Source: Rhodococcoides kyotonense
GTDB lineage: Bacteria > Actinomycetota > Actinomycetes > Mycobacteriales > Mycobacteriaceae
DNA length: 64,000 nt
Direction of reading: 5' to 3'
NCBI RefSeq assembly: GCF_900188125.1
Contig: NZ_FZOW01000021.1
Location: forward strand, 1 to 64,000
This document shows positions 27,238 to 49,629 of the stretch, one piece after another. The notes below the pieces were generated by a model, which did not search any database, was not told where the DNA came from, and saw nothing but the letters and a program-made list of their open reading frames with translations. Every line of letters starts with the position of its first letter. Position 1 is the first letter of the stretch. A program made the position numbers and the translations under genes.

Positions 27238-27253
27238 TCAACGTGAATGTTGC
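27238..27253. promoter_or_regulatory. Regulon operator site 1 (imperfect)
   Basis: TCAAC-GTGAAT-GTTGC, one mismatch to TCAAC-N6-GTTGA, upstream of the MHS transporter gene. Confidence 0.5.
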
Positions 27254-27271
27254 CCCGGCGCTTCGTCAAAG

Positions 27272-27287
27272 TCAACGTTTACGTAGA
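27272..27287. promoter_or_regulatory. Regulon operator site 2
   Basis: TCAAC-GTTTAC-GTAGA, the GTAGA half-site variant, in the divergent gap between the MHS transporter and the BVMO gene. Confidence 0.55.
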
Positions 27288-27302
27288 TAGTCGTCACGTG
27301 GG

Positions 27303-27320
27303 GTCAACTGCGACGTTGAC
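27303..27320. promoter_or_regulatory. Regulon operator site 3 (perfect)
   Basis: GTCAAC-TGCGAC-GTTGAC, perfect 6-6-6 palindrome in the centre of the divergent MHS transporter/BVMO gap. Confidence 0.7.
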
Positions 27321-27358
27321 AACTGCGCGTGACCCCTGTCACGATGAAGTGGAACTTA

Positions 27359-27374
27359 TCAACATCAATGTTGA
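27359..27374. promoter_or_regulatory. Regulon operator site 4 (perfect)
   Basis: TCAAC-ATCAAT-GTTGA, perfect arms, ending 65 bases before the BVMO start codon. Confidence 0.7.
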
Positions 27375-27439
27375 AAGTGTGATGATTCCGGCCTGGAGCA
27401 CCTTCCTCCAGTCGCCACATCGATGCGAGAGGTACTCGA

Positions 27440-29392
27440 ATGACGACAGTGCAGAGCGATTCGGCGGCCCCGGACGGCGGCGACTTCAATCCCGATCGGA
27501 TGACCGAGGACGAACTCAGGACCGCCATTGGCCGTGCCAACGTTCCCACCTTGCTGATGGTCGTCTTTCAGATGACCGGTGACGAGAAATGGCTGTCTGC
27601 GCCCTATCTCCCGACGCGGGGAAAGGGCCTCGGGGACCATGACTCGGGCGGATTGGACGAGGCGATTCAGGACGAGATTCGAGAGGCGGCGGTACATGCC
27701 ATCCTCGATCTGCAGAACGGTGTCCATCCCGCGATCGAAACTCCGTCGGCCGAGCTCACGGTTCGGATGATGAGTGTCTGCATGGGCGAGCCGGTGGGCG
27801 AAGAATATGGCCCGATGTTGTCTCTCGAGCTGGCGCGGCGTGCCGCGCCGGACGCTCCGAGCCTCGCTCTCGAACCCGTCACCGCACCCGAGGGGTTCTC
27901 GGTCATCGTGATCGGCACCGGAGTGGCCGGCATCGCCGCAGCCCAGCAGCTCGAGCAGATGGGCATCGACTACGTCATCCTCGAGAAGCAGCCGGAGGCC
28001 GGTGGAAACTGGTTCCAGAACACGTATCCGGGTGCAGGCGTCGACACCCCGAGTCATCTGTACTCGTTCTCGTTCGCGAAGAACGACTGGACGACGCACT
28101 TCGAGCTACGCAACGAGTTGCAGAGCTACTTCGCGCGGGTTCTCAAGGATCTCGGTGCAGGCGAGCGTGTGCGGTACGGGTCCGACGTGAAATCCGCGAC
28201 GTACGACGAGGCAGCCGCGCAGTGGACGGTCGAGGTGAACAACTCCGATGGAACGAGTTCGACGCTGGTCTCCGACGTCGTCATCAGCGCTGTCGGCGTC
28301 CTCAATCGTCCGAAGACTCCGAACGTGCCGGGAATGAACGACTTCGACGGCATAAGTTTCCACTCCGCAGACTGGCCGGACAACCTCGATCTGGACGGCA
28401 AACGCGTCGCGATCGTCGGAACCGGTGCCAGCTCGATGCAGATCGCGCCTGCGATCGCCGATCAGGTTGCGCACCTGTCGATCTACCAGCGGAGTCCGCA
28501 GTGGGTAGCACCGTTCGAGAAGTTCAGAATGCCGATCCCGATGGACCTACGTCACTTGATGCAGTCTGTCCCGATCTACCACAGCTGGTACTGGATTCGG
28601 CTGTTCTGGCAGTTCGGCGACAAGGTCATCGAGTCGCTCCGCGTCGATCCCGAATGGGATCATCCCGAACGTTCCGTCAACGCCCGCAACGACGCTCACC
28701 GCGAGTACTTCACGCGGTACATCACCTCGCAGGTGGGCGATCGCACGGATCTCCTCGACAAGGTCATGCCGGACTATCCTCCGTTCGGCAAGCGCATCCT
28801 GCTCGACAACGGCTGGTTCGCGACATTGCGGAAGGACAACGTGGACTTGATCGACCGGTCCGTCACCGCCGTCCGCCCCGAGGGACTCGTCGACGACGCC
28901 GGCGTCGAGACCGACGTCGACATCATCGTCTGGGCAACAGGTTTCGAGGCTGCGCGATTCATCAGCTCGATGGAGGTTCGAGGAATCGACGGGCTGACCT
29001 TGCGAGACGCATGGAACGACGACGACCCCAAGGCCTACTTGGGAGTGTCCGTTCCGGACTTCCCGAACTTCTTCATGCTCGGTGGCCCGAACTCGTTCCC
29101 CGGCAGCGGAAGCTTCATGTTCTTCATGGAGGTCCAGATGCGGTACATCCGTGGGCTTCTCACCGAGATGTTCCGAAACGGCATCAAGGCACTCGACGCG
29201 CGGCCGGAGGCGAACAAGGAGTACAACGAACTTGTCGACACGACCCATTCGCGCACTGTGTGGACCCACCGCGGAATGTCGACGTACTACCGCAATTCAC
29301 ACGGACGCGTGGTGTTCGTGATGCCGTTCCTCAACGTCGAATATTGGCAGATGACACGGCGTCCCGATCTGGAGAACTACACCGCCCGCTGA
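27440..29392 (+). CDS. Flavin-dependent Baeyer-Villiger monooxygenase (HAPMO-like)
   Basis: A 650-residue FAD/NADPH monooxygenase. A helical N-terminal extension of about 150 residues precedes the FAD motif GTGVAG at 159-164; this extension is characteristic of 4-hydroxyacetophenone monooxygenase-type enzymes. The BVMO fingerprint is FDGISFHSADWP at 302-313, and the NADPH motif GTGASS is at 327-332. It inserts oxygen next to a carbonyl, turning a cyclic ketone into a lactone or an aryl ketone into an ester. It stands alone on the plus strand behind four operator sites and ends at a strong hairpin. Confidence 0.92.
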   Translation: MTTVQSDSAAPDGGDFNPDRMTEDELRTAIGRANVPTLLMVVFQMTGDEKWLSAPYLPTRGKGLGDHDSGGLDEAIQDEIREAAVHAILDLQNGVHPAIETPSAELTVRMMSVCMGEPVGEEYGPMLSLELARRAAPDAPSLALEPVTAPEGFSVIVIGTGVAGIAAAQQLEQMGIDYVILEKQPEAGGNWFQNTYPGAGVDTPSHLYSFSFAKNDWTTHFELRNELQSYFARVLKDLGAGERVRYGSDVKSATYDEAAAQWTVEVNNSDGTSSTLVSDVVISAVGVLNRPKTPNVPGMNDFDGISFHSADWPDNLDLDGKRVAIVGTGASSMQIAPAIADQVAHLSIYQRSPQWVAPFEKFRMPIPMDLRHLMQSVPIYHSWYWIRLFWQFGDKVIESLRVDPEWDHPERSVNARNDAHREYFTRYITSQVGDRTDLLDKVMPDYPPFGKRILLDNGWFATLRKDNVDLIDRSVTAVRPEGLVDDAGVETDVDIIVWATGFEAARFISSMEVRGIDGLTLRDAWNDDDPKAYLGVSVPDFPNFFMLGGPNSFPGSGSFMFFMEVQMRYIRGLLTEMFRNGIKALDARPEANKEYNELVDTTHSRTVWTHRGMSTYYRNSHGRVVFVMPFLNVEYWQMTRRPDLENYTAR

Positions 29393-29454: not shown

Positions 29455-32400
29455 CTACCAGGTATCGATACGGCGGATGCCGGGAGATCGCGGCGGACGA
29501 GGAGCCCCGATGACCGCCGACAGCCACGTCCTGGTCGACGCAGGATCGATCACATCGTCGATCTCGAACACCGATGCAGCGTTGACCGCCTTGCCCTGCC
29601 CCTCGAAGTCGGCGAGATGTCCACGGTAGGTACGCTCGCGCTCCTCGGGGTCATCGATGGCGTCGAGTTCCCGCCGGAAGCCCAGCTTGACCGCTCCCTC
29701 GGGCCCCATGGCACCGAGAGCGCCGGTCGGCCACGCGACGATGGCGTCGGGAACCCGAAAGCTGCCTCCTGCCATGGCCTGTCCGCCCAAACCGTATGCC
29801 TTGCGGACGATCACCGTGCAGAACGGCACGGTGAGCGACGGCGTGAGAACGAACAGACGACTCACATGGCGGACCGTCGCCGTGCGTTCGGCATCGGGCC
29901 CGACGAGAAAGCCTGCCGTGTCGCACAACGAGAGAACCGGCAATCCGAACGCCTCGCACAACTGCAGGAACCGGGCCATCTTGTCGGCCTCGTCGCTGCC
30001 GATCGTGCCACCCCTCTGGCTACCGTCGTTCGCGACGACGCCGACCGACCGACCTTCGATACGGACGAGGGCAGTGGCCATGCCAGGCCCGAACTGTGAG
30101 CGCAGTTCCAGTACCGATCCCTCGTCGGCGAGGGTCGCGATGACCTGCCTGATGTCGAACGGTCGTTTTCTGCTTTCGGGGACCACATGTCGCAGCAACC
30201 GCTGATCGGCTTCGCTCCATTCCGAGGAGGGGTCACCGAAATAGCTCAGGTACCGCTTCGCTGTGTCGGTCGCCTCGGCTTCGTCGTCGACGAGAATGTC
30301 GATGACGCCGTTCGGTGCTTGTACCGAGCTGGGTCCGACGTCGTCGGCGTCGACCGTGCCGAGGCCACCGCCCTCGATCATCGCGGGGCCACCGAGGCCG
30401 ATCGAAGAATCACGCGTCGCGATGACGACGTCGCATGCCCCCAGAAGTGCTGCGTTGCCGGCAAAACAGCGTCCCGACGCGATGCCCACGGTCGGCACGA
30501 CTCCGTTGAGACGGCCGAGCGCGACGAACGTGCCCAGATCCATTCGGGTGGCGCGCGACATGTCGTCGGTGTCGCCGGGTCTACCGCCGCCGCCCTCGGC
30601 GAATACGACGACCGGAGTTCCTCGTCTGGCCGCGAGCTCGAAGATGCGTTCGGCCTTCTTGTGACTCTGAAGACCCTGTGTGCCTGCGAGAACCGTGTAG
30701 TCGTATGCCAGCGATGCGACGCTACGGCCATTCACAGTGCCGAAGCCGGTGACGAGTCCGTCGGCGGGTGTTGCGCTTTCGAGCTCGGACAGCGATCGTC
30801 GACGTCGTTGCGCCGCGACCACGAGACCGCCGTACTCGTGGAAACTGTCGACGTCGAACAGATCGGTCAGATTCTCTCGCGCGGTGCGTTTGTCTCGCTC
30901 GTGTCGCCGTGCGACCGCTGCTGGGCGTTCGGCGTCGAGGAGGCGTCGATGGCGAGAGGTGATGTCCGCCAAATCCTCTCGAATGGCCGACAGGTCCACC
31001 GCTTCGCAGGCTCGGTCGTCGGACTGCCGGTGACCTCGCGAATCCACCGTTGCGACAGCGGCTCCCTTCGTGACAGTCGCGCCGACCTGGACGTCGATCC
31101 TCGTGACGACACCCGCAACGGGGGAGGAGATGTCGGATTCCATCTTCATGGCCTCCACGACGGCCAGCACATCACCGCGTGCGACGACGGTGCCCGGCTC
31201 GACCGGCACTGCGACAACGGTACCGCCGGTGGGCGTCGAGACGTCGACGACCTCGTCGTTCGTAGAAACTTCGGAAGAGGACGTTGCGAGGTGCTGGTCA
31301 ATAGTCCGTGTCGTCGTCTCGCCGGCGAGGAAAGCAGAGGAGGTGAGGTACCACGTCAGGGTGGAGATGTCGGTGTCGAGATCGGCGAGAACCACGTCGC
31401 CTAACGCATCGTTCAAGAGCGTTGCAGCCCTGGGAAAGTCGTCGTCGAATGCGATGACCTTGGCGAGCAGCGGATCGAACCCGGTCCCGACGCGCATCCC
31501 GGGCCCGAGGTGCGTTTCGATCCGCAACGAGGGGCCGGCCGGAAACTTCATGTCGACGAGACGGTCCGACCGCCCCGGGCCGCCGGTGATCCTGGCTTCG
31601 ATTGCGACTCCGCGAGGTTCGCCGAGCCCCTGCGGCGAAAGACCCAGATCGGTGAGCGATTTTCCACCTGCCAGATCGAGTTGTATCGCAACGAGATCCA
31701 GGCCCGTGATCTGTTCGGTGATTCCGTGTTCGACCTGGATGCGGGGATTGGCCTCGATGAAGTACCACGCATCGGGACGGTCGGTGTCGACGAGGAACTC
31801 GAATGTTGCTACTCCGCGCAAAGATACGGCAGTCGCCAAAGTCAGTGCAGCGGAGTACAAATCGTCTCGGGTGTCTTCGGATAGGAACAGTGCAGGCGCG
31901 ATCTCGACCATCTTCTGGTGTCGGCGCTGGCCGGTGCAGTCACGATCGAAGAGGTGCATGGGCGGGGTAACTCCGTCACCGACGACCTGTACTTCGATGT
32001 GGCGTGCACGTGGAAGATACGCTTCGACGTAGACGTCCGGCACACCGAAGCTGCGTTCGGCTTCGGAGCGGCAACGCTCCATCGCCTGCTCGAGCTCGTC
32101 GAGATCCTCGACTATGCGCATGCCGCGGCCGCCACCGCCCGCGGTCGCCTTCACGATCACCGACGACAGGCCTCCGGCGTCGGCGAAGGCTCGTGCGGTG
32201 TCGACGGACGTCGACCCGGTGGTGGCCGGAAGCACCGGAACCGAATGGGCAGTGGCGAGTTCGCGCGTTGCGGACTTGTTGCCGAGTAGCCGCAATGTGG
32301 CGCCGTCGGGACCGACGAAGGTCAGGCCGGCGGCGACGCACGCGTCGGACAGCTCGGGGCTCTCGCTGAGGAAGCCGTAACCCGGGTGCACCATCGTGGC

Positions 32401-32616
32401 TCCGGACGCCAGAGCGGCCGCGCAGATGGCTGCCACGTCCAGGTATGCGGCCGGTCCTGATCCCTCCAGCGCCACGGCACGGTCGGCGGCGACGACATGG
32501 GGAGCGTCGGACTCGTCCTCGCTGAAGACGGCGGCGGTCGGTAGTCCACGAGCGGCCGCCGTACGCATGATGCGCAGCGCGATCTCACCGCGATTGGCAA
32601 CGAGAACGCCGGTCAT
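29455..32616 (-). CDS. Single-chain acyl-CoA carboxylase (BC-BCCP-CT fusion)
   Basis: A 1053-residue biotin enzyme containing all parts of an acyl-CoA carboxylase. Residues 1-445 are biotin carboxylase: VLVANRGEIALRIMRTA at the start, ATP-grasp GGGGRGM at 159-165, and RIQVEHGITEQITG near 293-306. The biotin lysine is K491 in EAMKMES. Residues from about 560 are the carboxyltransferase, including ELAARRGTPVVVFAEGGGGR and CDTAGFLVGPDAE. This matches the long-chain acyl-CoA carboxylase architecture. Beside a BVMO and ligases it could carboxylate a beta-methyl-branched acyl-CoA, as in isoprenoid breakdown (inference). Its ATG overlaps the flavin reductase stop. Confidence 0.93.
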   Translation of the reverse strand: MTGVLVANRGEIALRIMRTAAARGLPTAAVFSEDESDAPHVVAADRAVALEGSGPAAYLDVAAICAAALASGATMVHPGYGFLSESPELSDACVAAGLTFVGPDGATLRLLGNKSATRELATAHSVPVLPATTGSTSVDTARAFADAGGLSSVIVKATAGGGGRGMRIVEDLDELEQAMERCRSEAERSFGVPDVYVEAYLPRARHIEVQVVGDGVTPPMHLFDRDCTGQRRHQKMVEIAPALFLSEDTRDDLYSAALTLATAVSLRGVATFEFLVDTDRPDAWYFIEANPRIQVEHGITEQITGLDLVAIQLDLAGGKSLTDLGLSPQGLGEPRGVAIEARITGGPGRSDRLVDMKFPAGPSLRIETHLGPGMRVGTGFDPLLAKVIAFDDDFPRAATLLNDALGDVVLADLDTDISTLTWYLTSSAFLAGETTTRTIDQHLATSSSEVSTNDEVVDVSTPTGGTVVAVPVEPGTVVARGDVLAVVEAMKMESDISSPVAGVVTRIDVQVGATVTKGAAVATVDSRGHRQSDDRACEAVDLSAIREDLADITSRHRRLLDAERPAAVARRHERDKRTARENLTDLFDVDSFHEYGGLVVAAQRRRRSLSELESATPADGLVTGFGTVNGRSVASLAYDYTVLAGTQGLQSHKKAERIFELAARRGTPVVVFAEGGGGRPGDTDDMSRATRMDLGTFVALGRLNGVVPTVGIASGRCFAGNAALLGACDVVIATRDSSIGLGGPAMIEGGGLGTVDADDVGPSSVQAPNGVIDILVDDEAEATDTAKRYLSYFGDPSSEWSEADQRLLRHVVPESRKRPFDIRQVIATLADEGSVLELRSQFGPGMATALVRIEGRSVGVVANDGSQRGGTIGSDEADKMARFLQLCEAFGLPVLSLCDTAGFLVGPDAERTATVRHVSRLFVLTPSLTVPFCTVIVRKAYGLGGQAMAGGSFRVPDAIVAWPTGALGAMGPEGAVKLGFRRELDAIDDPEERERTYRGHLADFEGQGKAVNAASVFEIDDVIDPASTRTWLSAVIGAPRPPRSPGIRRIDTW

Positions 32617-33140
32617 GCGCTCGCGTCGTGGGCGGCGAAGCCGCCGTATCCGCCCTGGAAGAAGATCAGTGGAGATTCCGGGGTGTCGAGCTCGAGGTGA
32701 TGGACACGACCGACGACGATGTGGTGGTCACCAGCGTCGTGCACTGCGTCGATCTCGCAGTCGATCCACGCCAGTGAACCGAGGATGCGGGGCATGCCCG
32801 ACGGCGTCGGGGTCCAATCGACGTCGGTGAACTTCTCGTCACCCTTGCGAGCGAGACTGCGGCACACGTGTTGCTGGTCAGATCCCAGCACGTTGGCACA
32901 GAAACGTGTCGCTGCAAGAATCTTCGGGAACGTCGACGAATTCTTGTCGGGCAGGAAGGCTACCAGCGGCGGATCGAGCGATACGGAGGTGAACGAACCG
33001 ACTGTCATCCCGACGGGTTTGCCGCTCGCATCCAGTGCCGTCACTGCCACGACTCCGGTGGGGAAGTGGCCGAGGATGTCGCGGAAGAGGCGAGGGTCGA
33101 TGACTCGGTCGTCGTCGATAATTACTTGGTCAGTGGTCAT
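32613..33140 (-). CDS. Flavin reductase (HpaC/Fre-like split-barrel)
   Basis: A 175-residue flavin:NAD(P)H reductase of the HpaC family. Motifs are FRDILGHFPTGVVAVTALD at the start, GMTVGSFTSVSLDPPLVAFL for flavin binding, and a C-terminal DHHIVVGRVHHLEL where the family has a GDH-type motif. It makes free FMNH2 or FADH2 for two-component monooxygenases. The two LLM monooxygenases in this region need exactly such a supply. It overlaps both neighbours by ATGA, so it is tightly coupled to the SDR and carboxylase genes. Confidence 0.9.
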   Translation of the reverse strand: MTTDQVIIDDDRVIDPRLFRDILGHFPTGVVAVTALDASGKPVGMTVGSFTSVSLDPPLVAFLPDKNSSTFPKILAATRFCANVLGSDQQHVCRSLARKGDEKFTDVDWTPTPSGMPRILGSLAWIDCEIDAVHDAGDHHIVVGRVHHLELDTPESPLIFFQGGYGGFAAHDASA

Positions 33141-33961
33141 TTGATCGTCAGTCCTGCGTCGACGGGCAGCATGACGCCAGTGACGTACCGAGACTGGTCC
33201 GACGCCAACCACGCCACCGCGTTACTGATGTCTTCGGGTTCGAGAATGTCGATCGGCAGCAAGTTGCTGATCGAATTGCCCATGTTGGTGGGATCTGCCA
33301 AAGCCTCTGCGAGCGCGGTGTTTCCGACGACCATCGGTGTGTTCACCCCGGTCGGATGCACAGAGTTGACGCGAATGTTGTGCTCCGCGAGCAGGATCGC
33401 ATATTGGCGCATCAGGCCGACGACGCCGTGCTTGCTTGCGGTATAGCCGATTCCGGCGCCGGAGCTTCCGCCGACCGCTTTGATGCCTGCCGTCGAACTG
33501 GTCATGATGATCGATCCGCCACGTTGCTGCTCGATCAATCGGCTCCGGGCTACCTCGATCGTGTTGAACACACCGTTGAGGTTGACGGAGACGACGTCCG
33601 CGAACACTGCATCACGATCGGGTTCGTGTGCCTGTTGCGGCGCGATGCCGGCATTGGCAACGACGATGTCCACGCCTCCGAGTTCGGCGGCACCCTCCTC
33701 GAAGGCGGCAGCGAGTCCGGCTTTGTCTCGTACATCTGCCGTTCGGGCGACGATCCGACGGTCGAGCTTCTCCACGAGCGCGACGGTCTCGGCCAGATCC
33801 TCCTCGGTCGCGAGTGCGTAGGGGACGGTGTCGATCGACCGGCAGATGTCGACGGCGATGATGTCTGCGCCGTCCTCGGCGAGCCGGAGCGCATGACTGC
33901 GCCCCTGGCCACGAGCCGCTCCGGTGATGAATGCGACCTTGCCGTTCAGTGTGCCGCTCAT
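33137..33961 (-). CDS. Mycofactocin-coupled SDR (carveol dehydrogenase-like)
   Basis: A 274-residue SDR with the expanded segment typical of mycofactocin-dependent dehydrogenases: GKVAFITGAARGQGRSHALR, then IIAVDICRSIDTVPYALAT and EEDLAETVALVE. Catalytic parts are IIMTSSTAG and YTASKHGVVGLM. The group includes carveol dehydrogenase and keeps NAD(H) tightly bound, passing electrons to mycofactocin. It would oxidise a cyclic secondary alcohol to the ketone that a BVMO then attacks. It is the first gene of the SDR-flavin reductase-carboxylase operon and has regulon operators upstream. Confidence 0.9.
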   Translation of the reverse strand: MSGTLNGKVAFITGAARGQGRSHALRLAEDGADIIAVDICRSIDTVPYALATEEDLAETVALVEKLDRRIVARTADVRDKAGLAAAFEEGAAELGGVDIVVANAGIAPQQAHEPDRDAVFADVVSVNLNGVFNTIEVARSRLIEQQRGGSIIMTSSTAGIKAVGGSSGAGIGYTASKHGVVGLMRQYAILLAEHNIRVNSVHPTGVNTPMVVGNTALAEALADPTNMGNSISNLLPIDILEPEDISNAVAWLASDQSRYVTGVMLPVDAGLTIK

Positions 33962-34061: not shown

Positions 34062-34079
34062 GTCAACCATTACGTTGAC
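34062..34079. promoter_or_regulatory. Regulon operator site 5 (perfect)
   Basis: GTCAAC-CATTAC-GTTGAC, perfect 6-6-6 palindrome, about 100 bases upstream of the mycofactocin-type SDR gene. Confidence 0.7.
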
Positions 34080-34083: not shown

Positions 34084-34099
34084 TCCACATTAATGTAGA
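34084..34099. promoter_or_regulatory. Regulon operator site 6 (degenerate)
   Basis: TCCAC-ATTAAT-GTAGA, next to site 5 in the same divergent gap; two arm mismatches. Confidence 0.4.
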
Positions 34100-34156: not shown

Positions 34157-34172
34157 TCTACACCGACGTTGA
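34157..34172. promoter_or_regulatory. Regulon operator site 7
   Basis: TCTAC-ACCGAC-GTTGA, ending 58 bases before the SnoaL-like gene at 34231. Confidence 0.55.
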
Positions 34173-34828: not shown

Positions 34829-34844
34829 TCTACGCAAACGTTGA
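34829..34844. promoter_or_regulatory. Regulon operator site 8
   Basis: TCTAC-GCAAAC-GTTGA, ending 26 bases before the ATG of the second SnoaL-like gene, where bound repressor would block transcription. Confidence 0.6.
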
Positions 34845-36186: not shown

Positions 36187-36199
36187 GGAAGGACCTGCC

Positions 36200-40288: not shown

Positions 40289-42880
40289 TCAGGACCGCCC
40301 AGCGAACGTTGGCGAGAGCGCGATCTGATGCCGACGGGCGACACCGAGCTTGCGTAGTACGTGCGCGACGTGTCCCTCGACGGTTCTGATCGACAGGACC
40401 AGACGATCCGCGATCTCTTTGTTGGACAGTCCTTCTGAGACGAGCTGTGCTACGTCCATCTCGCGCGGCGAGAGTCCGTTCGGAGAATCCGACGACGGCA
40501 CGGCGTCGTCGGATTGTTCCCCGAGGGCGTACTCGATCAGGTCGGCCATCGACAGGGACTCGCCACGACGATGCAACGCGGCGTACGCCGCGTCTCCCAA
40601 TGCTGCCCGTGCGCGCGACTCGTATACCTCGCGTCGCTGAACCCAGTGCTCGGAACCGTACAGTTGGGCACCGAACGAATCCCACATCGACGACGCGGCC
40701 CCGAGCAGAACCGCCGCGCGTTCACCGGAACCGGCCGCAGCTTCTGCCCAGGCCAGGAGGTCGGTCACCAACGTGGCCCCGACGGTGTCGTCGAATGCGC
40801 GTTTGAGCTCGAGGGATTCGATCGCACGCGCGATCGCTTCGTCGTGCCGTCCACGAACCAGCGCTACAAGACCGAGTCCGTACACCGCGTACGACAGCAT
40901 CCACTTCTCACCGGTTGCCGACGCCTGGGCATGGACGAATTCGAAGTTCTCGGCAGCGCGCTCGGTTTCGCCGTTGGAGCTGCAGAGCATTCCCATCTCG
41001 ATGTGCGCGGTCCACATCAGATCCGTGATGTCGGGGCGAGCGTCGTACAGCGACAACGCCTCCGACAAGCTTCGCTCGCCCATGAGGAAGTCGCCGCCGA
41101 GATAGGTGTTGAGACCCTGGGTCTGGAGGGCGAACGCCAACGTCGCGTCGTCACCGTGTTCGCGCGCCGCGCTGGCTGCGGTAGCGAGCGTGCCGACCGC
41201 TGCCGAGCGCTCTCCCTGCATCGTCTGCAGCAGGCCCAATGTCGCGTGGAGGCGCGGTAGCACGTCGTCGGGCACACCCTCGCGATGGAGGAACTCGGTT
41301 ACCCACATGCGCTGTTCTCGTACCGAGAACGCCGAGGACCACAGGAACCAGGTCGCGACGAGACCGGCCGCGAGCTTCAGAGTTTCGTGGCCGCTGTCGG
41401 TCAACGCTGTCTGCAAGGCCGCGCGAAGGTTCGCACGATTCTCTCGAAGTCCTCGTGTCGCGCGAACCTGATCGGACCCTGTCCACGACCGTCGGCTCGA
41501 TCGCACCAGATCTGCACACCACCGAAGGTGGACGATGCCCAGATCCGACTTCTCGCGCGTGGTCAGCTTGCTTGCCCCGAACTGACGTATCGTCTCGAGC
41601 ATCGTGAACCGGATGCGGCCTTCATCGGCGGTGCGCTGCAGAACCGACTTTCCGATGAGTCCCGAAAGCGCGTCGAGAATGCCGGGTGCGTCGACAGGGG
41701 CTCCCGCGCAGATGTTTTCGGCCATCGCGAGGTCGAATCCTCCGGAGAACACCGACAGTCGGGCCCACAGCACTTGTTCCTCGGTCGTGCAGAGGTCGTA
41801 GCTCCACTCCACTGTGGCATGCAGACTTCGGTGCCTGCTCGGTCCGCCGCGATTGCCGATCGTCAAGAGAGACAGCCTGTCGTCGAGACGTTCCGCGAGG
41901 TCGTCCACCGACAATGCGGTCAACCGGGCGCACGCCAGCTCGATGGCCAAGGGCATTCCGTCGAGCTGAGTGCATACGCGGCGCACAGCATCACGCGTCG
42001 ACGGGGTGATGGCGAAGCCGGATAGTGCTGCGGCAGCCCGATTCTCGAACAATTCGAGGGCAGCGCCCGTCGTGGACAGGGGATCGAGTACGTGTACGTG
42101 CTCGTCCGGAGTGGAGAGAACCTCGCGGCTGGTCGTCAGGACCTTCACGTGTTCGGTGCTCCGTAGGATCAGAGAGATCAGAGCCGCGCACACTCCGACG
42201 AGATGCTCGCAATTGTCCAGCACCACCAGCATGTGCTTGGTGCGCAGTGATTCGAGAAGCGACTCCGTCGCGCTGCGATCCGGCGAGTCTCGATCGTCGA
42301 GGCCCAAAGCGTCCATGACGGTCTGAGGTAACAACGTGTCGCTACGCACTGCGGCGAGCTCGACGAAACGCACGCCGTCATCGAACGCACGTCTGAACGC
42401 GGACGCGGCCTCGGCTGCCAGACGCGTCTTACCGATGCCACCTGGGCCGGCGATCGTGACGAGCCGGCTCTCGCCGAGCATCGTTCGGATGGCCTGCAGT
42501 TCGTCGTCGCGTCCGACGAAACTGGTGGAGAACACGGGGAGGTCGGTCGCGCTGGGAACGGAAGCTCGTCCGCCTGAGGAACGCTCTTCTTTCACACGAC
42601 GAACAGTGCCCGCCAATGTGTTTCGCGATCCGCTCCACTGTAGGTCGCGATGCAATTGTGCGACCGTGACGTCGGGATCGCTCTCGAGCGCTGCGGCGAT
42701 TCGCGGGCGGAGTGCATCCGCCGACGAACCGATTCTTGGTCGATGATCGGGAGGTGGGCCGTCGAATTCCAGAGCACGACGGACGGTGTTTCTCGAGATG
42801 TTCAAGGCCACCGAGATGCCGGAGATCGATTCACCGGAGCGTCTGAGGTCGACGATCTCCCGCCACTCGTCAGCGTTCAT
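40289..42880 (-). CDS. Large ATP-binding LuxR-type regulator with N-terminal IstA-like HTH
   Basis: An 863-residue signal-sensing regulator. Residues 1-100 (MNADEWREIVDLRRSGESIS, NISRNTVRRALEFDGPP, then PRIAAALESDPDVTVAQLHR) resemble the DNA-binding start of IS21 IstA transposases. The NTPase domain follows with FVGRDDELQAI and Walker A GPGGIGKT at 145-152, and a DNCEHLVG Walker B near 225. TPR-like repeats fill 480-780, and the last 61 residues are a LuxR helix-turn-helix (LSPREMDVAQLVSEGLSNKE, then RTVEGHVAHVLRKLGV). It lies inside the catabolic region, divergent from the LLM operon, which it may activate. Confidence 0.9.
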   Translation of the reverse strand: MNADEWREIVDLRRSGESISGISVALNISRNTVRRALEFDGPPPDHRPRIGSSADALRPRIAAALESDPDVTVAQLHRDLQWSGSRNTLAGTVRRVKEERSSGGRASVPSATDLPVFSTSFVGRDDELQAIRTMLGESRLVTIAGPGGIGKTRLAAEAASAFRRAFDDGVRFVELAAVRSDTLLPQTVMDALGLDDRDSPDRSATESLLESLRTKHMLVVLDNCEHLVGVCAALISLILRSTEHVKVLTTSREVLSTPDEHVHVLDPLSTTGAALELFENRAAAALSGFAITPSTRDAVRRVCTQLDGMPLAIELACARLTALSVDDLAERLDDRLSLLTIGNRGGPSRHRSLHATVEWSYDLCTTEEQVLWARLSVFSGGFDLAMAENICAGAPVDAPGILDALSGLIGKSVLQRTADEGRIRFTMLETIRQFGASKLTTREKSDLGIVHLRWCADLVRSSRRSWTGSDQVRATRGLRENRANLRAALQTALTDSGHETLKLAAGLVATWFLWSSAFSVREQRMWVTEFLHREGVPDDVLPRLHATLGLLQTMQGERSAAVGTLATAASAAREHGDDATLAFALQTQGLNTYLGGDFLMGERSLSEALSLYDARPDITDLMWTAHIEMGMLCSSNGETERAAENFEFVHAQASATGEKWMLSYAVYGLGLVALVRGRHDEAIARAIESLELKRAFDDTVGATLVTDLLAWAEAAAGSGERAAVLLGAASSMWDSFGAQLYGSEHWVQRREVYESRARAALGDAAYAALHRRGESLSMADLIEYALGEQSDDAVPSSDSPNGLSPREMDVAQLVSEGLSNKEIADRLVLSIRTVEGHVAHVLRKLGVARRHQIALSPTFAGRS

Positions 42881-43133: not shown

Positions 43134-43535
43134 ATGACGACGACGGATCAGAACATCGAGTTGGCCAACAACTTCGCCAAGGTCTTCTCCACGGGTGACG
43201 TGGAGCAAATTCTTGCCACTCTCCACCCCGATGCGACCTACTGGGTCTCGGGTGGAATCGAGGGAATGTCGGGTGTCTACGACAAGGCGGGACTCGGCGC
43301 CTTGCTGAGTGGAGTCACCACCGTGTACGAGAACGGCGCGCTGGAGGTCACCCCCACATCGGCAATTGCGCAGGGAGACAAAGTCGCTGTAGAGGCCACG
43401 TCTTACGCGAAGCTGAACAACGGCAAGATCTACCAGAACCAGTACCACTTCTTGTTCGAGATCCGCGACGGACAGATCTTTTCCGTCAAGGAGTACATGG
43501 ACACCAAGCACGCGTTCGACATCTTCTACTCCTGA
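43134..43535 (+). CDS. SnoaL-like (NTF2 fold) protein
   Basis: A 133-residue NTF2-fold protein: NIELANNFAKVFSTGDVEQI, then LHPDATYWVSGGIEGMSGVY, and FEIRDGQIFSVKEYMDTKHA at the end, the standard SnoaL/ketosteroid-isomerase-like layout. It is the first gene of a plus-strand unit with an LLM monooxygenase (36 bases on) and an SDR, downstream of the divergent LuxR-type gene. The third such protein in this region, it probably acts on or sequesters a hydrophobic intermediate. Confidence 0.85.
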   Translation: MTTTDQNIELANNFAKVFSTGDVEQILATLHPDATYWVSGGIEGMSGVYDKAGLGALLSGVTTVYENGALEVTPTSAIAQGDKVAVEATSYAKLNNGKIYQNQYHFLFEIRDGQIFSVKEYMDTKHAFDIFYS

Positions 43536-43570
43536 AGACGAATCACTCTCGTAGAAAGGCATTTTCACTC

Positions 43571-44686
43571 ATGGCAATGGAGACCGGACTCATCGTCCAC
43601 CCGTACATGCGACCTGAGCACACCTCGCGCCAGACATTCGACTGGTGTGTGGACCAGGCAATCGTTGCCGACAAGATCGGCTTCGACTCGGTGATGTACT
43701 CCGAGCACTCTTCTCAGCGCTGGGAGAACATCCCGGCACCGGAATTGGTCATCGCCGCAGCGGCTCGTCAGACCGAGCGCATCAAGTTCGCCCCGATGGC
43801 GCACATCCTGCCGCACCACCATCCAGCCAAGCTTGCCGTCACGATCGGCTGGCTGTCACAGATTCTCGAAGGCCGCTACTTCCTCGGTGTCGGTGCCGGT
43901 GCATACCCACAGTCGACGTACATCCACGGGATCAAGAACGGTGAAGACACCGAGTTCACCAACAAGATGGTGCGTGAATCGCTCGAGATCATGGAAAAGA
44001 TCTGGAAGCGTGAGCCGTTCTTCTACGAGGGGCAGTTCTGGAATGCAGGCTACCCGGAAGAGACCCACGCCGACGAGGGCGACGACCAGCACATGCTCGC
44101 CGACTTCAGTCCGTGGGGCGGTGCCCCCGAGATCGCTGTCACCGGATTCAGTGCCCAGTCTCCGTCGATGAAGTTCGCTGGTGAGCGAGGCTTCCGTCCG
44201 ATGTCGATCTTCTCCGGTCTCGATGCATTGAAAACTCATTGGGAGATCTACTCGACGGCAGCGGAAGCCAACGGCCACGTCGCGGATCGATCGCGCTACC
44301 ACGTGTCACAGACCGTGTTCGTCGCCGACACCGACAAGGAAGCCAAGCGCCTTGTCATGGAGGGGCCGATCGGGCATTGCTTCGAGCGCTACCTCATCCC
44401 CATCTGGTGGCGTTTCGGCATGATGGACGGATTCATCAAGGACGCCGGAGCGCACAAGTCCGACGTCGATCTCGAGTGGGTCGTCGACAACGTCTTCTGC
44501 GTCGGATCGCCGGATACCGTGGTGGACAAGATCAATACTCTGTTCGAGGCCAGCGGTGGCTGGGGCACGCTTCAGGTCGAGTCGCACGACTACTCCGAGG
44601 ACCCGTCACCCTGGTACCAGTCTCTCGAACTGATCGCCAAGGAAGTTGCACCCCGGATCTCGCTCCCCACACCCGTCAGCGTGTAG
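43571..44686 (+). CDS. LLM class flavin-dependent monooxygenase
   Basis: A 371-residue luciferase-like TIM-barrel enzyme. Features are ETGLIVHPYMRPEHTSRQTF at the start, IGFDSVMYSEHSSQRWENIP, ARQTERIKFAPMAHILPHHH and LEGRYFLGVGAGAYP, the usual bacterial-luciferase/alkane-monooxygenase pattern. It uses FMNH2 and O2 to oxidise its substrate, by hydroxylation, epoxidation or Baeyer-Villiger insertion; limonene monooxygenase belongs to this superfamily. It is a clear paralogue of the LLM gene at 45554. The flavin reductase at 32613 is the nearest FMNH2 source. Confidence 0.9.
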   Translation: MAMETGLIVHPYMRPEHTSRQTFDWCVDQAIVADKIGFDSVMYSEHSSQRWENIPAPELVIAAAARQTERIKFAPMAHILPHHHPAKLAVTIGWLSQILEGRYFLGVGAGAYPQSTYIHGIKNGEDTEFTNKMVRESLEIMEKIWKREPFFYEGQFWNAGYPEETHADEGDDQHMLADFSPWGGAPEIAVTGFSAQSPSMKFAGERGFRPMSIFSGLDALKTHWEIYSTAAEANGHVADRSRYHVSQTVFVADTDKEAKRLVMEGPIGHCFERYLIPIWWRFGMMDGFIKDAGAHKSDVDLEWVVDNVFCVGSPDTVVDKINTLFEASGGWGTLQVESHDYSEDPSPWYQSLELIAKEVAPRISLPTPVSV

Positions 44687-44710
44687 TACCGAATCGAAAG
44701 CAGGGTAGAC

Positions 44711-45460
44711 ATGACGAAGCGGTTGGAGGGCAAAGTCGCCCTCGTCACCGGTGCATCGCGCGGTATGGGCGAGTCGCACGCGAGGACGTTCATCGAGCAC
44801 GGAGCGAAGGTCGTTCTCGCGGACGTGACCGACGATGCGGGCGAGCTACTCGCGAAAGAGTTGGGGGACAACGCGATCTTCGTTCACCACGACGTCACGA
44901 AACTCGACTCCTGGACCAACGTCGTCGACGAGAGTGTCGCTGCGTTCGGTGAGATCAATATCCTGGTCAACAACGCAGGCGTTCTGGGCCCGCTCGCCAC
45001 GACGGCCGAGCTGACCGAGAATGACTACCGCACCGTGTGCAGCATCAACCAGGACGGCGTGTTCTTCGGGATGAAAGCTGTTCTGCCGTCGATGGAACGG
45101 GCCGGTATCGGTTCCATCGTGAACATCTCGTCGATCGCGGGCATCGCTGCCAACTACGGCTTTCCGAGCCTCGCGTACGTGGCCAGCAAGTTCGCGGTCC
45201 GTGGAATGACGAAAGCGACTGCAATCGAATACGGTCCGAAGAACATTCGCGTCAACTCGGTGCATCCGGGCTTCATTCAGACTCCGATGATGGTGGAGGC
45301 GACCAACGAAGAGGGCGGTGACGCACTCGGCCTGATTCCGTTGGGCCGCATCGCCGATCCGCGGGAAGTCTCGAACCTGGTGTTGTTCTTGGCCTCGGAC
45401 GAGTCCTCGTACATCACAGGAGCGGAACATCTGGTCGACGCCGGGATGATGGCCCAGTAG
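44711..45460 (+). CDS. Short-chain dehydrogenase/reductase
   Basis: A 249-residue classical SDR: cofactor loop TGASRGMGES at 13-22, NNAG near 87-90, IVNISSIAG with the catalytic serine, YVASKFAVRGM with Tyr-x3-Lys, and VHPGFIQTPM. It resembles 3-alpha/20-beta-hydroxysteroid dehydrogenase-like SDRs. It starts 24 bases after the LLM gene behind a GCAGGGT site. Oxidation of the alcohol formed by, or supplied to, the monooxygenase is the likely task. It ends at the long hairpin at 45476. Confidence 0.9.
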   Translation: MTKRLEGKVALVTGASRGMGESHARTFIEHGAKVVLADVTDDAGELLAKELGDNAIFVHHDVTKLDSWTNVVDESVAAFGEINILVNNAGVLGPLATTAELTENDYRTVCSINQDGVFFGMKAVLPSMERAGIGSIVNISSIAGIAANYGFPSLAYVASKFAVRGMTKATAIEYGPKNIRVNSVHPGFIQTPMMVEATNEEGGDALGLIPLGRIADPREVSNLVLFLASDESSYITGAEHLVDAGMMAQ

Positions 45461-45553: not shown

Positions 45554-46720
45554 TCAGCTCACGGCAACTGTGTCGTATGTGCCCTCGACGTGAACATTGG
45601 GAACGACTTCGGTGGCGAAGAGGCGAAGCGACTCGACCCACGGAGCCGGATCGTCGAGCGCGTCGTGCGTGTTGACGGCGATCTGACCGTAGCGGAAACC
45701 GCTGAGCTCGAACGTCTTCTCGATCTTGGCTGAAACGGTCTCCGGACTTCCACAGAGCCAGACGTGGTCGGCGAGGTACTCGAGATCGACGTCGTCGATG
45801 TCGACCTTCTTCTCCGCGTCGTCGATGAAGCCCTGCAGAATGCGGTACTTCTGGTAGACGGGCATGAGGTACTTCTCCCACGCACGGCCCAGCGGCCCGT
45901 TGATCGCCTGTTCCTTGGCCTCGTCGTCGGTCTTCGCCACGTAGACGTCACGTGCCACTTTGAAACGCGCACCGTCGGGTGTTCCACCCACGGAACGGAC
46001 TGCTTCGGAATAGGTGTCCCACTGTGAGCGCAGGAGCGCCGAGCCACCGTAGAAGGAGATCGGGGTCCAGCCACGTTCACCGGCCAGTCGGTGCGACGGC
46101 GAGTTCTTGCTCAGGCCTGTGACTGCGATTTCGAGGCCGTCGGCGCCGCCGTGGGGTGAGTGATCGGCGGTGAGGTGGTATTCCTCGCCTTCCTTGACCT
46201 TGAACTCTCCGTGCGATGCGACGCTGCCGGGATCGATTTGGCCGTCGAGACGAGCTGCTTTGTAGTACTTGCCTTCGAAGTCGAAGGGTTCCTGACGCCA
46301 GACCTTGTCCATGACCTCCAGGCCTTCCATGAGGCGCGGGTGTGCCTCGGAGAGGTCGCCCGGCTGTCCGCGGAGGACGGCTTCGTTCTCCCATGATCCC
46401 GCGCCGACGCCGAGGAAGTAGCGGTCCTCCAACAGTTGCGAGGTGTAACCGACCTGGACGGCCAGTGTCGACGGGTTGTGCAGCGGCACGATGTGGGCCA
46501 TCGGTGCGAAGCGCAGGCGCTCTGTCTGCTGCGCTGCGGCGACGATCAGAAGCTCCGGATTAGGGATGTTCTCCCACGCCTGCATGCCGTGCTCGCCGAC
46601 CATGAAGTCGCGGTAGCCGAACTTGTCGGCAGCCTTGGCCAGCAGCAGCGAGTACTCGAAGGTTTCCTTGTCCTTACGTCCCGGACGCATGTACGGGGTG
46701 TGAAAGATTCCGCATTCCAT
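45554..46720 (-). CDS. LLM class flavin-dependent monooxygenase
   Basis: A 388-residue luciferase-like monooxygenase, paralogous to the one at 43571. It starts MECGIFHTPYMRPGRKDKET, followed by DFMVGEHGMQAWENIPNPEL, AQQTERLRFAPMAHIVPLHN and LEDRYFLGVGAGSWENEAV. ATG at 46720 has GGAG nine bases upstream; the open frame continues to 47443 but that part crosses an operator and the next gene. It likely oxidises a different intermediate or regioisomer from its paralogue. A perfect regulon operator (site 11) lies 181 bases upstream. Confidence 0.9.
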   Translation of the reverse strand: MECGIFHTPYMRPGRKDKETFEYSLLLAKAADKFGYRDFMVGEHGMQAWENIPNPELLIVAAAQQTERLRFAPMAHIVPLHNPSTLAVQVGYTSQLLEDRYFLGVGAGSWENEAVLRGQPGDLSEAHPRLMEGLEVMDKVWRQEPFDFEGKYYKAARLDGQIDPGSVASHGEFKVKEGEEYHLTADHSPHGGADGLEIAVTGLSKNSPSHRLAGERGWTPISFYGGSALLRSQWDTYSEAVRSVGGTPDGARFKVARDVYVAKTDDEAKEQAINGPLGRAWEKYLMPVYQKYRILQGFIDDAEKKVDIDDVDLEYLADHVWLCGSPETVSAKIEKTFELSGFRYGQIAVNTHDALDDPAPWVESLRLFATEVVPNVHVEGTYDTVAVS

Positions 46721-46900: not shown

Positions 46901-46918
46901 GTCAACTGTAACGTTGAC
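46901..46918. promoter_or_regulatory. Regulon operator site 11 (perfect)
   Basis: GTCAAC-TGTAAC-GTTGAC, perfect 6-6-6 palindrome, between the LLM gene and the end of the RibB-like fusion gene, so the LLM gene has its own regulated promoter. Confidence 0.7.
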
Positions 46919-47007
46919 GTTGATCAGAACCGATTCCGGACATGCGGAAATCGCGACGACCGAATTCGGTCGCCGCGATATCCGTTGCGCTGTAGATGTA
47001 TTCCGTG

Positions 47008-48435
47008 TCAGAGAGTTCCGACGAGCGCGCGTGTGCGAATCACATCCGCGGACAGCGCCGCGATCAGTTCTTCCTTGGATGCGAAGGTGGTCTGCCCGCG
47101 CATCCAATGATCCAGTCGGACTTCGATAGTGACGCCGTAGAGGTCGCCGGAGAAGTCCAACAGATGGGCTTCCAGGAGCCGAACGCCGGACCTGCCGTAG
47201 AAGGTGGGGCGTCGTCCTACCGAAACTGCTGCTGCGACAACGGATCCATTCGGAAGCAGGCATCTTCCTGCCCAGACGCCATCCGCGACCGAATTGAACT
47301 CGTCGAGCTCGACGTTGGCTGTTCGAAAACCCAGTTCTCGACCTCGTTGGTCTCCGCGCACTACTTCTCCTGCGACGCGGCGGGGCTCGGGGGCTCCGGT
47401 TGCGTCGACCGGATGCCCGCCGATGCTCATCCCGAAATGCCACATCATCGTGCGCGCAGACGGCGGGAAATTACTGGGAGTCGATGTGCTGTAACCACAT
47501 TCGCGCACTATCTCGACGAGATCGGCATCGGTGTCGGCCGGAACGACGGCGGCGTCGCTGTTCCTGTGACGCACGACGATGACTGTCCCGCCACCGTTCT
47601 CGGCCACCATGGTCAGTGCATCAGCGGCGATGTCACGTGAGAGGTGTGGCGCGGAATCTGTCTCGCGCTCGGCTCGTACCAGTGGGGCGGAGTTGTCCGG
47701 GAGAGTGTCCAACGAGTACGCAACGTATTCGATGCCGGACACATCGCTGGAAAAGCCGACGCAGTGGACCGGTCCGTATTCGGAGGGTCGTGCGACCGTG
47801 AACTGTGTCTGCAGATGTAGTTCGGTGATGCGTCGGTAGATCGCGACGTCTTCGACGGAGACGACGGCCAAGCCGTGCTCGGTTGCGAAGCTCGCGGCTT
47901 CGGTCGACTCGGCGATCTCGGTCGGGTCGTTCTGAGAGACGAGAGCAGTGAACGACCCAGCTCGCCGCAAGCCGGCGATGGTCGTCAGGTCGATGGTGGC
48001 TTCTGCTGCGCCTCGGCGCCCCAACACGCCGCCGTCCGCAGTCCGCACGGGAAGCACGTGCCCCGGTCTGGTGAACGTATCGACGGTGCTGGCATCCTCG
48101 GACAGAAGACGCAAGGTCCGTGCCCGGTCGGCTGCCGATATTCCAGTGCCGGGCCCGACCGCGTCCACGCTCACGGTGTACTCAGTGCCTGCGTGGTCGC
48201 GGTCTGCTCCGACCATGGTCGTCAACTGGAGTCGATCACACTCGGCGCTGGTCAGTGCTGCACAGACCAGCCCCGAGCCGTAGCGGACCAGGAATGCGAC
48301 CGACTCGACTTCCGATTTCTCTGCGGCAACGACGAGATGTGCGTCGTCGTCCCGCCCGGCCCCGGTGAGCACAACCGGCCGACCGGCGCTCAGGTCCGCC
48401 AGGGCGCGCTGTACCCGAGTGGTTGGACAATCCAT
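47008..48435 (-). CDS. RibB-like / degenerate GTP cyclohydrolase II-like / riboflavin kinase fusion
   Basis: A 475-residue three-part protein. Residues 9-201 follow DHBP synthase (RibB) closely: RYGSGLVCAALTSAECDRLQ, then GTGISAADRARTLRLLSED and RPGHVLPVRTADGGVLGRRG. However, the acidic DDEDRENEGD loop is replaced by GAGRDDDAH, and the metal-binding His of GHTEATIDL is Ala (GAAEATIDL). Residues 208-342 match GTP cyclohydrolase II in layout only; its zinc cysteines are missing. Residues 353-470 are a riboflavin kinase domain (GRELGFRTANVELDEF, VSVGRRPTFYG, LYGVTIEVRLDHWMRG). The kinase could supply FMN to the LLM enzymes; the first two domains look inactive or repurposed. Operator site 12 lies 68 bases upstream. 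Confidence 0.85.
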   Translation of the reverse strand: MDCPTTRVQRALADLSAGRPVVLTGAGRDDDAHLVVAAEKSEVESVAFLVRYGSGLVCAALTSAECDRLQLTTMVGADRDHAGTEYTVSVDAVGPGTGISAADRARTLRLLSEDASTVDTFTRPGHVLPVRTADGGVLGRRGAAEATIDLTTIAGLRRAGSFTALVSQNDPTEIAESTEAASFATEHGLAVVSVEDVAIYRRITELHLQTQFTVARPSEYGPVHCVGFSSDVSGIEYVAYSLDTLPDNSAPLVRAERETDSAPHLSRDIAADALTMVAENGGGTVIVVRHRNSDAAVVPADTDADLVEIVRECGYSTSTPSNFPPSARTMMWHFGMSIGGHPVDATGAPEPRRVAGEVVRGDQRGRELGFRTANVELDEFNSVADGVWAGRCLLPNGSVVAAAVSVGRRPTFYGRSGVRLLEAHLLDFSGDLYGVTIEVRLDHWMRGQTTFASKEELIAALSADVIRTRALVGTL

Positions 48436-48502
48436 TGCTGGCCTCGATTCTCGGGGAACGATTCGTTCACTGTGACGAGCGTCGCAAACTTCCGATGCGG
48501 TG

Positions 48503-48518
48503 TCAACATCAACGTAGA
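48503..48518. promoter_or_regulatory. Regulon operator site 12
   Basis: TCAAC-ATCAAC-GTAGA, upstream of the RibB-like/riboflavin kinase gene. Confidence 0.6.
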
Positions 48519-48546
48519 TATTGATCAGAGGCCGATATCGGCGGGG

Positions 48547-49482
48547 TCAGTACACCGCTATCAGCCGTGCATCCGCGGAACCTTCCTCGAGGCGATGCAG
48601 GCCGGCCGGAATGTCGTCGAACGTGATCTGTTCGGTGTTGGGGCGGACGGAGCCGTCGGCGAAGAGTTCGAGAATTGCCCGAGCCTCCTCTTTGGTTCCG
48701 TTGGACGAGCCGACGATCTGCACTTCCTTCATGGTGAGGTTCGGGATCGATATCGACGTGGTGTCCGAACCGAGGCCGACCTCGACGATTCGGCCTCCAT
48801 GACGGATGGCGTCGACTGCGGAACCCAATGTGTTTCCGGCGCCTGCGAAGTCGATGATGAGGTCGAGTTCCTCGGACTCGAAGTCGCGGATATCCTTCGA
48901 TATTGCGGTTGCGCCGAGTTCTGTTGCCGACGCCCATCTCGATTCGTTCAGCTCGGACACGTACACGGTTGCACCTGCAGCCAACGCGATCTGGACGCCG
49001 AAGAATCCGAGACCTCCGAAGCCGATGATTCCCACTTTCATGCCGGATTCGATCCGGCCTGCCGTGTGTACCGCGCGGTAAGCGGTGCGACCGGAACACG
49101 TTGCGGGCGCGGCGTCGCGGAACGAGAGTCCGTCGGGCAGCGTGACGGGCAATCGTGCCGGCACCACGACCTTCTGGGCGTAGCCGCCGTTGATCGCCGT
49201 TCCGGGGCCGTCCGTCGTCGCGGGAATGCCGATCCGGTCGCCCGCCGCGAACTCGGTCACGTTGGAACCGACCTCGACGACTGTTCCGACGATCTCGTGC
49301 CCCAGGGTGATCGGAACATGGCCGAGGAGGGACGTGATGGTGCCGTCCATGAATCCGATGTCGGAGTGGCACAGGCCGACCGCCCCTGTTTCGACGAGGA
49401 CATCGTCGGGCCCGGGGGTTGGATCTTCGGACTCCACCTTTGTGAGCGGTTCGCCGACCGCTGTGAACTGCCAAGCCTTCAT
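48547..49482 (-). CDS. Medium-chain alcohol dehydrogenase lacking the structural zinc lobe
   Basis: A 311-residue MDR-family dehydrogenase. The catalytic zinc site is present (VGLCHSDIG with Cys38, and LGHEIVG), and the Rossmann motif GFGGLGFFG is near 154-162. The lobe with four structural-zinc cysteines, normally after the catalytic Glu, is shortened to GIPATTDGPGTAINGGYAQ and contains none of them, which explains the short length. It should oxidise or reduce an alcohol/aldehyde or ketone in the pathway with NAD(P). It has its own promoter with operator site 13 about 130 bases upstream. Confidence 0.88.
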   Translation of the reverse strand: MKAWQFTAVGEPLTKVESEDPTPGPDDVLVETGAVGLCHSDIGFMDGTITSLLGHVPITLGHEIVGTVVEVGSNVTEFAAGDRIGIPATTDGPGTAINGGYAQKVVVPARLPVTLPDGLSFRDAAPATCSGRTAYRAVHTAGRIESGMKVGIIGFGGLGFFGVQIALAAGATVYVSELNESRWASATELGATAISKDIRDFESEELDLIIDFAGAGNTLGSAVDAIRHGGRIVEVGLGSDTTSISIPNLTMKEVQIVGSSNGTKEEARAILELFADGSVRPNTEQITFDDIPAGLHRLEEGSADARLIAVY

Positions 49483-49613
49483 GTGTGTCAGCCTTTCCTC
49501 GTGTCAGCGCTTCTGCGGGCGGAGACGTGCTGTGCCGCTGAGGTATTCGTCCGTCCGGCAGAAGAAAGTGACGAGCGACTCGGGGGAACTGTAGGCCTGA
49601 CCCGACCATCACG

Positions 49614-49629
49614 TCAACATCGGAGTTGA
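49614..49629. promoter_or_regulatory. Regulon operator site 13 (perfect)
   Basis: TCAAC-ATCGGA-GTTGA, perfect arms, upstream of the alcohol dehydrogenase gene; the rightmost site found. Confidence 0.65.

Follow-up and report, generated by a model that had tools for sequence, protein, structure and literature searches.

A palindrome, TCAAC-N6-GTTGA, as the predicted operator of a TetR-family regulator in a catabolic gene block of Rhodococcoides kyotonense

We will start with the TetR-type regulators of catabolic genes which come closest to the system studied here, as they are described in parts of the papers cited. For KstR2 of Mycobacterium tuberculosis (Rv3557c), the repressor of the cholesterol-ring regulon, the palindromes are spread over several promoters within a single catabolic cluster, its own promoter included (PMC3068626). 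EdcR of Caenibius tardaugens, a TetR repressor of oestradiol genes, also has a palindrome in several promoters (PMC8700777). The same species has a pdc cluster for progesterone, in which a Baeyer-Villiger monooxygenase (BVMO), a luciferase-like monooxygenase (LLM) and regulators of the TetR and LuxR types are found together (PMC12239570). In the CAM plasmid of Pseudomonas putida a TetR-type repressor, CamR, acts on camphor genes: it controls camDCAB, the diketocamphane monooxygenase genes are found elsewhere and further regulators of the plasmid are called uncharacterised (PMC6027186). The locus which we have analysed lies in a stretch of 64,000 nucleotides of Rhodococcoides kyotonense (contig NZ_FZOW01000021.1, positions 1 to 64,000), which we call the window. 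It is a block of about 22 kb (27238-49629) in which a palindrome, TCAAC-N6-GTTGA, is repeated in front of many genes. An earlier note on this DNA considered that the palindrome marks a catabolic regulon and that a TetR-family protein coded in the block (37025-37702, minus strand) is the obvious candidate for its regulator.

The likeness to KstR2 consists of a predicted TetR repressor with the nearest fold and of palindromes spread across one catabolic cluster, but the operators are different: the KstR2 motif is AnCAAGnnCTTGnT, with 14 bp (PMC3068626), as compared with TCAAC-N6-GTTGA, or TCWACRTNNAYGTWGA in its extended form, in our case. The operator proposed for EdcR, TnnCnnTACnAnTnGTAnnGnnA, is also different (PMC8700777). 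A TetR-type regulator and a diketocamphane-type monooxygenase are shared with the CAM plasmid; the block differs from the CAM camphor pathway in having no P450cam-type hydroxylase among the genes scanned. CamR and the pdc TetR are known here by description: the words operator and palindrome are absent from the available text of PMC6027186 and from that of the main text of PMC12239570. The passages at hand of a paper on QsdR (PMC6262395) contain no operator sequence. In the open-licence literature the exact operator strings, in several spellings, matched no paper, and no description of the regulon is found among the matches listed (titles and starts of abstracts). The TetR protein is apparently uncharacterised, though it is widely spread.

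A pattern search of the window shows that the 13 equally spaced palindromes of the earlier note are all present at 27238-49629. Three of them (27303, 34062 and 46901) had been numbered from the first base of GTCAAC, and the TCAAC core begins one base further on. Two bases of the site at 34084 (TCCAC-N6-GTAGA) deviate from TCAAC/GTTGA, while the remaining 12 sites have no mismatch or one. Six sites have perfect arms (27304, 27359, 34063, 37822, 46902 and 49614) and three have the form GTCAAC-N6-GTTGAC, the same numbers as had been claimed. The listed sites are real, but three overlapping ones had been overlooked: 48509 with one mismatch, 27266 and 46908 with two mismatches each. All three are offset by 6 bp from a listed site. 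When up to one mismatch is allowed the window has 13 sites, every one of them within the block and in a predicted gap between genes, as had been stated; such gaps, defined by our own gene calls, represent 11% of the region 27-50 kb. With up to two mismatches there are 47 matches versus 24.5 (sd 4.9) in shuffles, the strong ones being the block sites.

The whole genome (6,308,867 bases in 50 contigs) contains the perfect palindrome six times, always in the block, and its reversed-pattern control three times. In the earlier note no such sites had been noticed in the gaps outside the block, and for the perfect palindrome this holds in the genome as well. The extended motif TCWACRTNNAYGTWGA, with up to one mismatch, has 16 matches, ten of them in the block, and its control has five; this motif was read off the block's own sites, so that its count favours the block, and the perfect palindrome had also been derived from the block in the earlier note. 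The six extended-motif matches outside the block all fall within predicted coding sequence.

Relatives of the TetR protein were found at 26 loci of a genome-contig collection. In a first scan 18 of the 19 loci with at least 36% identity (L007-L025) had operator matches with up to one mismatch, and the remaining one (L018) carries a T[CT]TAC form. The other seven (L026-L032) are more distant or partial matches: they have no perfect and no extended-motif copy, and six one-mismatch copies in all. On plasmids, the best four relatives out of 548 matched records (33-41% identity) have 1-5 perfect copies each. The form of the palindrome goes with residue 64, which lies in the recognition helix. For regulators with Ser or Thr in this position we have 20 deduplicated stretches (381 kb), and 51 perfect palindromes are found in 18 of them, as compared with a mean of 0.41 and a maximum of 3 for 29 permuted half-sites; the two without palindrome (L050 and L058) each represent the downstream half of a 40-kb stretch. 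The 20 stretches come from Actinomycetota and Alphaproteobacteria. The regulators with Ala64 (9 loci, 176 kb) have no perfect TCAAC form, and all nine loci have T[CT]TAC-N6-GTA[GA]A, 22 copies in total. Neither form was found in ten control loci (201 kb), namely seven loci with a distant TetR and three with a related LLM but without a close TetR. All these locus counts include related loci, which are not independent. In the 72 Mb of the nine genomes with Ala64 the sequence TTTACRTNNAYGTWGA, a pattern picked after the first scan of the relative loci, has 13 exact matches in eight genomes and its control none; 12 of the 13 have coordinates inside TetR loci. In the tree the regulators of Mycobacterium E1747 and Sphingomonas formosensis (L024 and L022) are paired with support 100/99, which suggests a transfer between phyla.

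An evenly drawn sample of 301 genomes of the family contains seven with the TetR protein. The fraction of their perfect sites which lies in the stretch around its gene is 6/6 (the window), 4/6, 2/5 (a 20-kb contig), 2/2, 4/8 (a 29-kb contig), 3/4 and 7/11. The protein is present in only one of the 30 sampled genomes of the genus, that of the window, so that the block looks acquired. The other 29 genomes of the genus have 0-5 perfect sites, with a mean of 1.9; in most of them the reversed control is found more often than the palindrome itself. Outside the family, the genome of Sphingomonas formosensis has 14 perfect palindromes: six are found in one contig (C8) and five in another (C16), perhaps two regulons.

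The motif was also recovered without being supplied. A first palindromic expectation-maximisation (EM) run gave TCAACA....TGTTGA in the group formed by sphingomonads, Mycobacterium and Nocardioides; for the other three sets it ended up with CG-rich motifs. A second run, limited to 20 sites at most and to narrower regions for the Ala64 set, gave TCAACGT..ACGTTGA in L007-L009 and half-sites of the TCTAC/TTTAC type in the Ala64 group. The spacer of 6 bases stands out with a count of 59. A lesser count of 12 at spacer 0 may come from overlapping half-sites; some stretches enter twice in this tally (L051 with L007, L053/L054 with L008, L055/L056 with L009). Pairs of sites have their own regularity. 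In the rhodococcal group 25 pairings are found at 6 bases versus 1.4 expected, with an excess also at 16, 21-22 and 34; in this tally pairs and orthologous promoters enter repeatedly. In the distant group a peak at 6 is absent, and 6 pairings each are found at 23 and 28, versus 1.0 expected.

The protein itself clearly belongs to the TetR family: PF00440 (TetR_N) is matched with 59 bits, the cut-off being 24, and TetR_C_24 is also present. Its AlphaFold2 model (mean pLDDT 83.8, with 19 alignment rows) has an all-helical TetR fold. The top listed Foldseek matches of the model are KstR2, PfmR, RHA5900 and a Thermobifida TetR, all of them regulators of this family; KstR2 is the nearest fold, with a TM score of 0.85 by target length, and acyl-CoA-bound regulators such as AibR and FadR rank lower. 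Of the NCBIfam TetR equivalogs (FadR and others) 20 families were matched and none reached its cut-off, the best one with 61.6 bits versus 200. As far as the model goes, the best reading is a repressor with a KstR2-like fold. KstR2 contacts its HIP-CoA ligand through Arg162 and Trp166. These positions align to Phe and Asn in our protein (HMMER alignment, read by eye), so its ligand pocket should differ from that of KstR2. Orthology with KstR2 was rejected, as the operator differs and the CoA-ligand residues are not kept. An acyl-CoA ligase is found in 18 of the 22 gene-called or annotated relative loci (none in L007, L009, L022 and L034; L016 was not gene-called in this count), which favours a CoA thioester as effector: we lean towards it with some reserve.

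We consider it very probable, on comparative grounds, that the palindrome is the operator of this TetR protein. The candidacy proposed in the earlier note is strongly supported by the comparison of genomes, because palindrome and regulator co-occur in two phyla, the operator variant tracks the TetR clade, perfect sites cluster near the regulator in the seven genomes of the family which have it and the genome of the window has a single close member of the subfamily, its next TetR being 27% identical. A TetR dimer would contact both half-sites, whose centres are separated by 11 bp, roughly a full turn of the helix. It would repress about ten transcription units by covering their -35 region, and its own gene through the site 37736; a pathway intermediate, perhaps the CoA thioester produced by the acyl-CoA ligase of the block, would release it.

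The units of the block and their sites can be followed along the window. On the minus strand a short-chain dehydrogenase/reductase (SDR, 25038-25814) and an MFS transporter (25838-27157, called an MHS transporter before) diverge from an FAD-type BVMO-like flavoprotein with an N-terminal extension (27440-29392, plus strand). In the gap between transporter and BVMO the pattern search finds an operator-like site with one mismatch, TCAACGTGAATGTTGC (27238-27253), and another, TCAACGTTTACGTAGA (27272-27287), which has no mismatch to the extended motif and is overlapped by the two-mismatch site 27266. They are followed by two perfect palindromes: 27304-27319, with the half toward the BVMO reading TTGACA, and 27359-27374, near the BVMO start. 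The next unit, on the minus strand, codes for a single-chain biotin-dependent acyl-CoA carboxylase-like protein (29455-32616), a flavin reductase (32613-33140) and an SDR (33137-33961). Its perfect palindrome (34063-34078) also has TTGACA toward the unit, and 21 bp from it we find the degenerate palindrome TCCAC/GTAGA (34084-34099). A palindrome with one mismatch (34157-34172) precedes a SnoaL_4-like gene (34231-34740, plus strand), and another (34829-34844), with TTGACA in its facing half, precedes a second SnoaL_4-like gene (34871-35353) which is followed by two enoyl-CoA hydratase/isomerase-family genes (35350-36976: 35350-36186 and 36200-36976), all on the plus strand. The tetR gene has a one-mismatch palindrome on its 5' side (37736-37751). 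The perfect palindrome 37822-37837 goes with a promoter-like TTGACA-17-TAGCGT toward a generic acyl-CoA ligase (37961-39619), which is followed by a carboxymuconolactone-decarboxylase-family gene (39616-40284), both on the plus strand. At the end of the block, on the minus strand, a diketocamphane-type LLM (45554-46720) has the perfect palindrome 46902-46917, with a promoter-like TTGACA-17-TACTCT toward it and the overlapping two-mismatch site 46908; a fusion of DHBP (3,4-dihydroxy-2-butanone 4-phosphate) synthase, RibB, and riboflavin kinase (47008-48435; this start is preferred over 48372) has a double palindrome with 6-bp offset (48503 and 48509, spanning 48503-48524); and a zinc-type alcohol dehydrogenase (48547-49482) has the perfect palindrome 49614-49629, with a promoter-like TTGACG-18-TACAGT toward it. 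Between these groups there is another diketocamphane-type LLM (43571-44686), accompanied by a SnoaL_2 and an SDR gene in a plus-strand unit (43134-45460), and a LuxR/LAL-type regulator (NB-ARC and GerE; 40289-42880, minus strand, scanned in its shorter frame 40289-42535). Neither of the two has a site with up to one mismatch in the window.

In six of the ten units the gene-facing half-site is exactly TTGACA, a -35 hexamer. In four units (ligase, LLM at 46720, alcohol dehydrogenase and tetR) a TANNNT is found 17-19 bases downstream, the best of four spacings being taken, in a count without control for the -10 region. When the window is considered together with L007-L009, TTGACA is present in 19 of 57 gene-facing halves and in none of 13 others (Fisher p 0.014). 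This overlap agrees with a repressor which covers the -35 region. Double sites with a 6-base offset number at least 11, three of them in the window (27266, 46902 and 48503), with others in L009 (6762), L033 (9922), L049, L050, L059 and L060: they are found mainly in rhodococcal relatives. QacR-type operators bind paired dimers. By analogy, two dimers could bind where operators overlap with a 6-bp shift, but our double sites are present at some promoters only, which is a difference from QacR.

The gene content bears out the label catabolic. LLM 43571-44686 matches 3,6-diketocamphane 1,6-monooxygenase (4uwm) with 632 bits over residues 1-366 of 371, and its next solved entry has 57 bits. The second LLM has the same best match, with 335 bits, and no other entry passed 1e-10. 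For the BVMO-like flavoprotein OTEMO is among the matches with 191 bits, the best match having 219.5. Flavin reductase, alcohol dehydrogenase and ligase fit camphor-type chemistry. An oxidation by alcohol dehydrogenase or SDR would come first, then the diketocamphane-type monooxygenase, dependent on flavin mononucleotide (FMN), with the flavin reductase and an own FMN supply from RibB-riboflavin kinase, then CoA ligation, a second Baeyer-Villiger step and the hydratase and carboxylase steps. Since the first LLM gives such a high match, we tentatively propose, at somewhat less than even chance, that these genes open the ring of a bicyclic terpenoid-type ketone similar to camphor. A point which speaks against it is that no P450 is found among the block genes scanned or in ten further genes of the window, the rest of the genome not having been searched; P450 genes are present in some related loci. 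The chances are evenly balanced that regulator and operator are as described and the substrate is of another kind, such as a steroid or a different polycyclic ketone. Distant TetR members adjoin different gene sets: one annotation is that of an acyclic-terpene AtuA protein, and other sets combine a flavin-dependent monooxygenase with a lipid-transfer protein and a TonB receptor. BVMO and LLM serve for progesterone in C. tardaugens, according to the parts of the pdc paper used here (PMC12239570); on the other side stands the best solved match of both LLMs. In the RibB-riboflavin kinase fusion the middle part gives a partial match to RibBA models. Of the 18 gene-called relative loci considered (L007-L015 and L017-L025), 11 have matches to the fusion, several of these matches being shorter, and the word RibBX does not occur among the literature matches listed.

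Other readers of the palindrome have to be considered. It is highly improbable that the LuxR/LAL-type protein, rather than TetR, recognises the palindromes as an activator of the regulon. Its gene does sit in the block with a catabolic operon as neighbour, and the pdc cluster, as described in part of PMC12239570, has a regulator of the LuxR type together with its BVMO and LLM genes. However a LuxR homologue was found only in L008 among L007-L015 and L017-L028 (in stretches not longer than about 20 kb), whereas palindromes are present in nearly all TetR loci; the unit beside the LuxR gene is just the one without a clear palindrome, and the motif variant tracks the TetR clade. The LuxR/LAL-type gene diverges from this LLM unit and the pair is kept in L008; it may regulate unit 43134-45460. 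A second idea, that the sites belong to another, perhaps global, regulator, is equally hard to sustain. It would account for the 165 matches with one mismatch found in the genome (control 97) and for the TetR-less genomes of the family, which have up to 12 perfect palindromes (in genera other than that of the window); but in this genome no perfect copy is found outside the block, the extended-motif matches outside it are all in coding sequence, and perfect copies are also absent from the ten control loci. Both candidates were rejected.

Several observations weigh against TetR and its palindromes as we present them, among them the two which have just been given as favouring a global regulator and the altered ligand positions described above. 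An equal density of sites elsewhere in the genome was regarded in the earlier note as an argument against the regulon: the perfect sites are all in the block, but with one mismatch the matches are many genome-wide, so that single degenerate sites prove little, and we have set aside this plain one-mismatch search as too loose. Each of 20 shuffles contains some 5-mer inverted repeat with 5-6 copies, and the coding sequence of the true window contains CG-rich ones with 7-11. Copy number alone therefore carries no proof: the case for real sites rests on their position and clustering. Ten distant relatives have 81 perfect sites, of which only 28 are in the TetR stretch fetched: 2/8, 5/7, 3/5, 2/6, 2/14 and 1/11 in six genomes (reversed controls 1, 14, 1, 0, 2 and 4) and 5/8, 3/7, 1/7 and 4/8 in four plasmids (reversed controls 0 in each). 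In one of these genomes the reversed control is even commoner than the palindrome, 14 versus 7. The Ala64 rows correspond to one change on the tree, with weak support (72/96), and the link between Ser/Thr-to-Ala and the operator variant may be a single evolutionary event. Two of the three groups gave their motif only after the number of sites was limited, and EM, when applied to the window by itself, moved off to a CG-rich motif, though real sites ranked high. Finally, the unit with the best diketocamphane monooxygenase match has no clear site: its 5' gap, aligned with the counterpart in L008, shows nothing beyond a weak two-mismatch match at 42965. The view of one palindrome for the whole regulon has to be qualified for this unit. 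A chance origin of the palindromes is rejected on the counts of perfect sites, extended motifs and window positions.

With TetR 37025-37702 as the probable regulator, we give an even chance to a wider view. One TetR subfamily, with an N-terminal RR arm and a recognition helix DRA[S/T/A]xYYY, would be a portable module which carries the TCAAC-N6-GTTGA operator between Actinomycetota and Alphaproteobacteria together with varied gene sets for ring ketones and terpenoids. The change from Ser/Thr to Ala would switch the half-site to T[CT]TAC, the operators shifted by 6 bp would serve paired dimers and the regulon would make its own FMN for two-component monooxygenases. The analysis offers a predicted DNA code and a defined regulon for a widely spread TetR, and suggests a controller of diketocamphane-type monooxygenases outside Pseudomonas. 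The two operator variants are a natural test of which residue of the recognition helix reads which base. The presence of a regulated RibB-riboflavin kinase in the regulon suggests that the supply of FMN is co-induced with the enzymes which depend on it.

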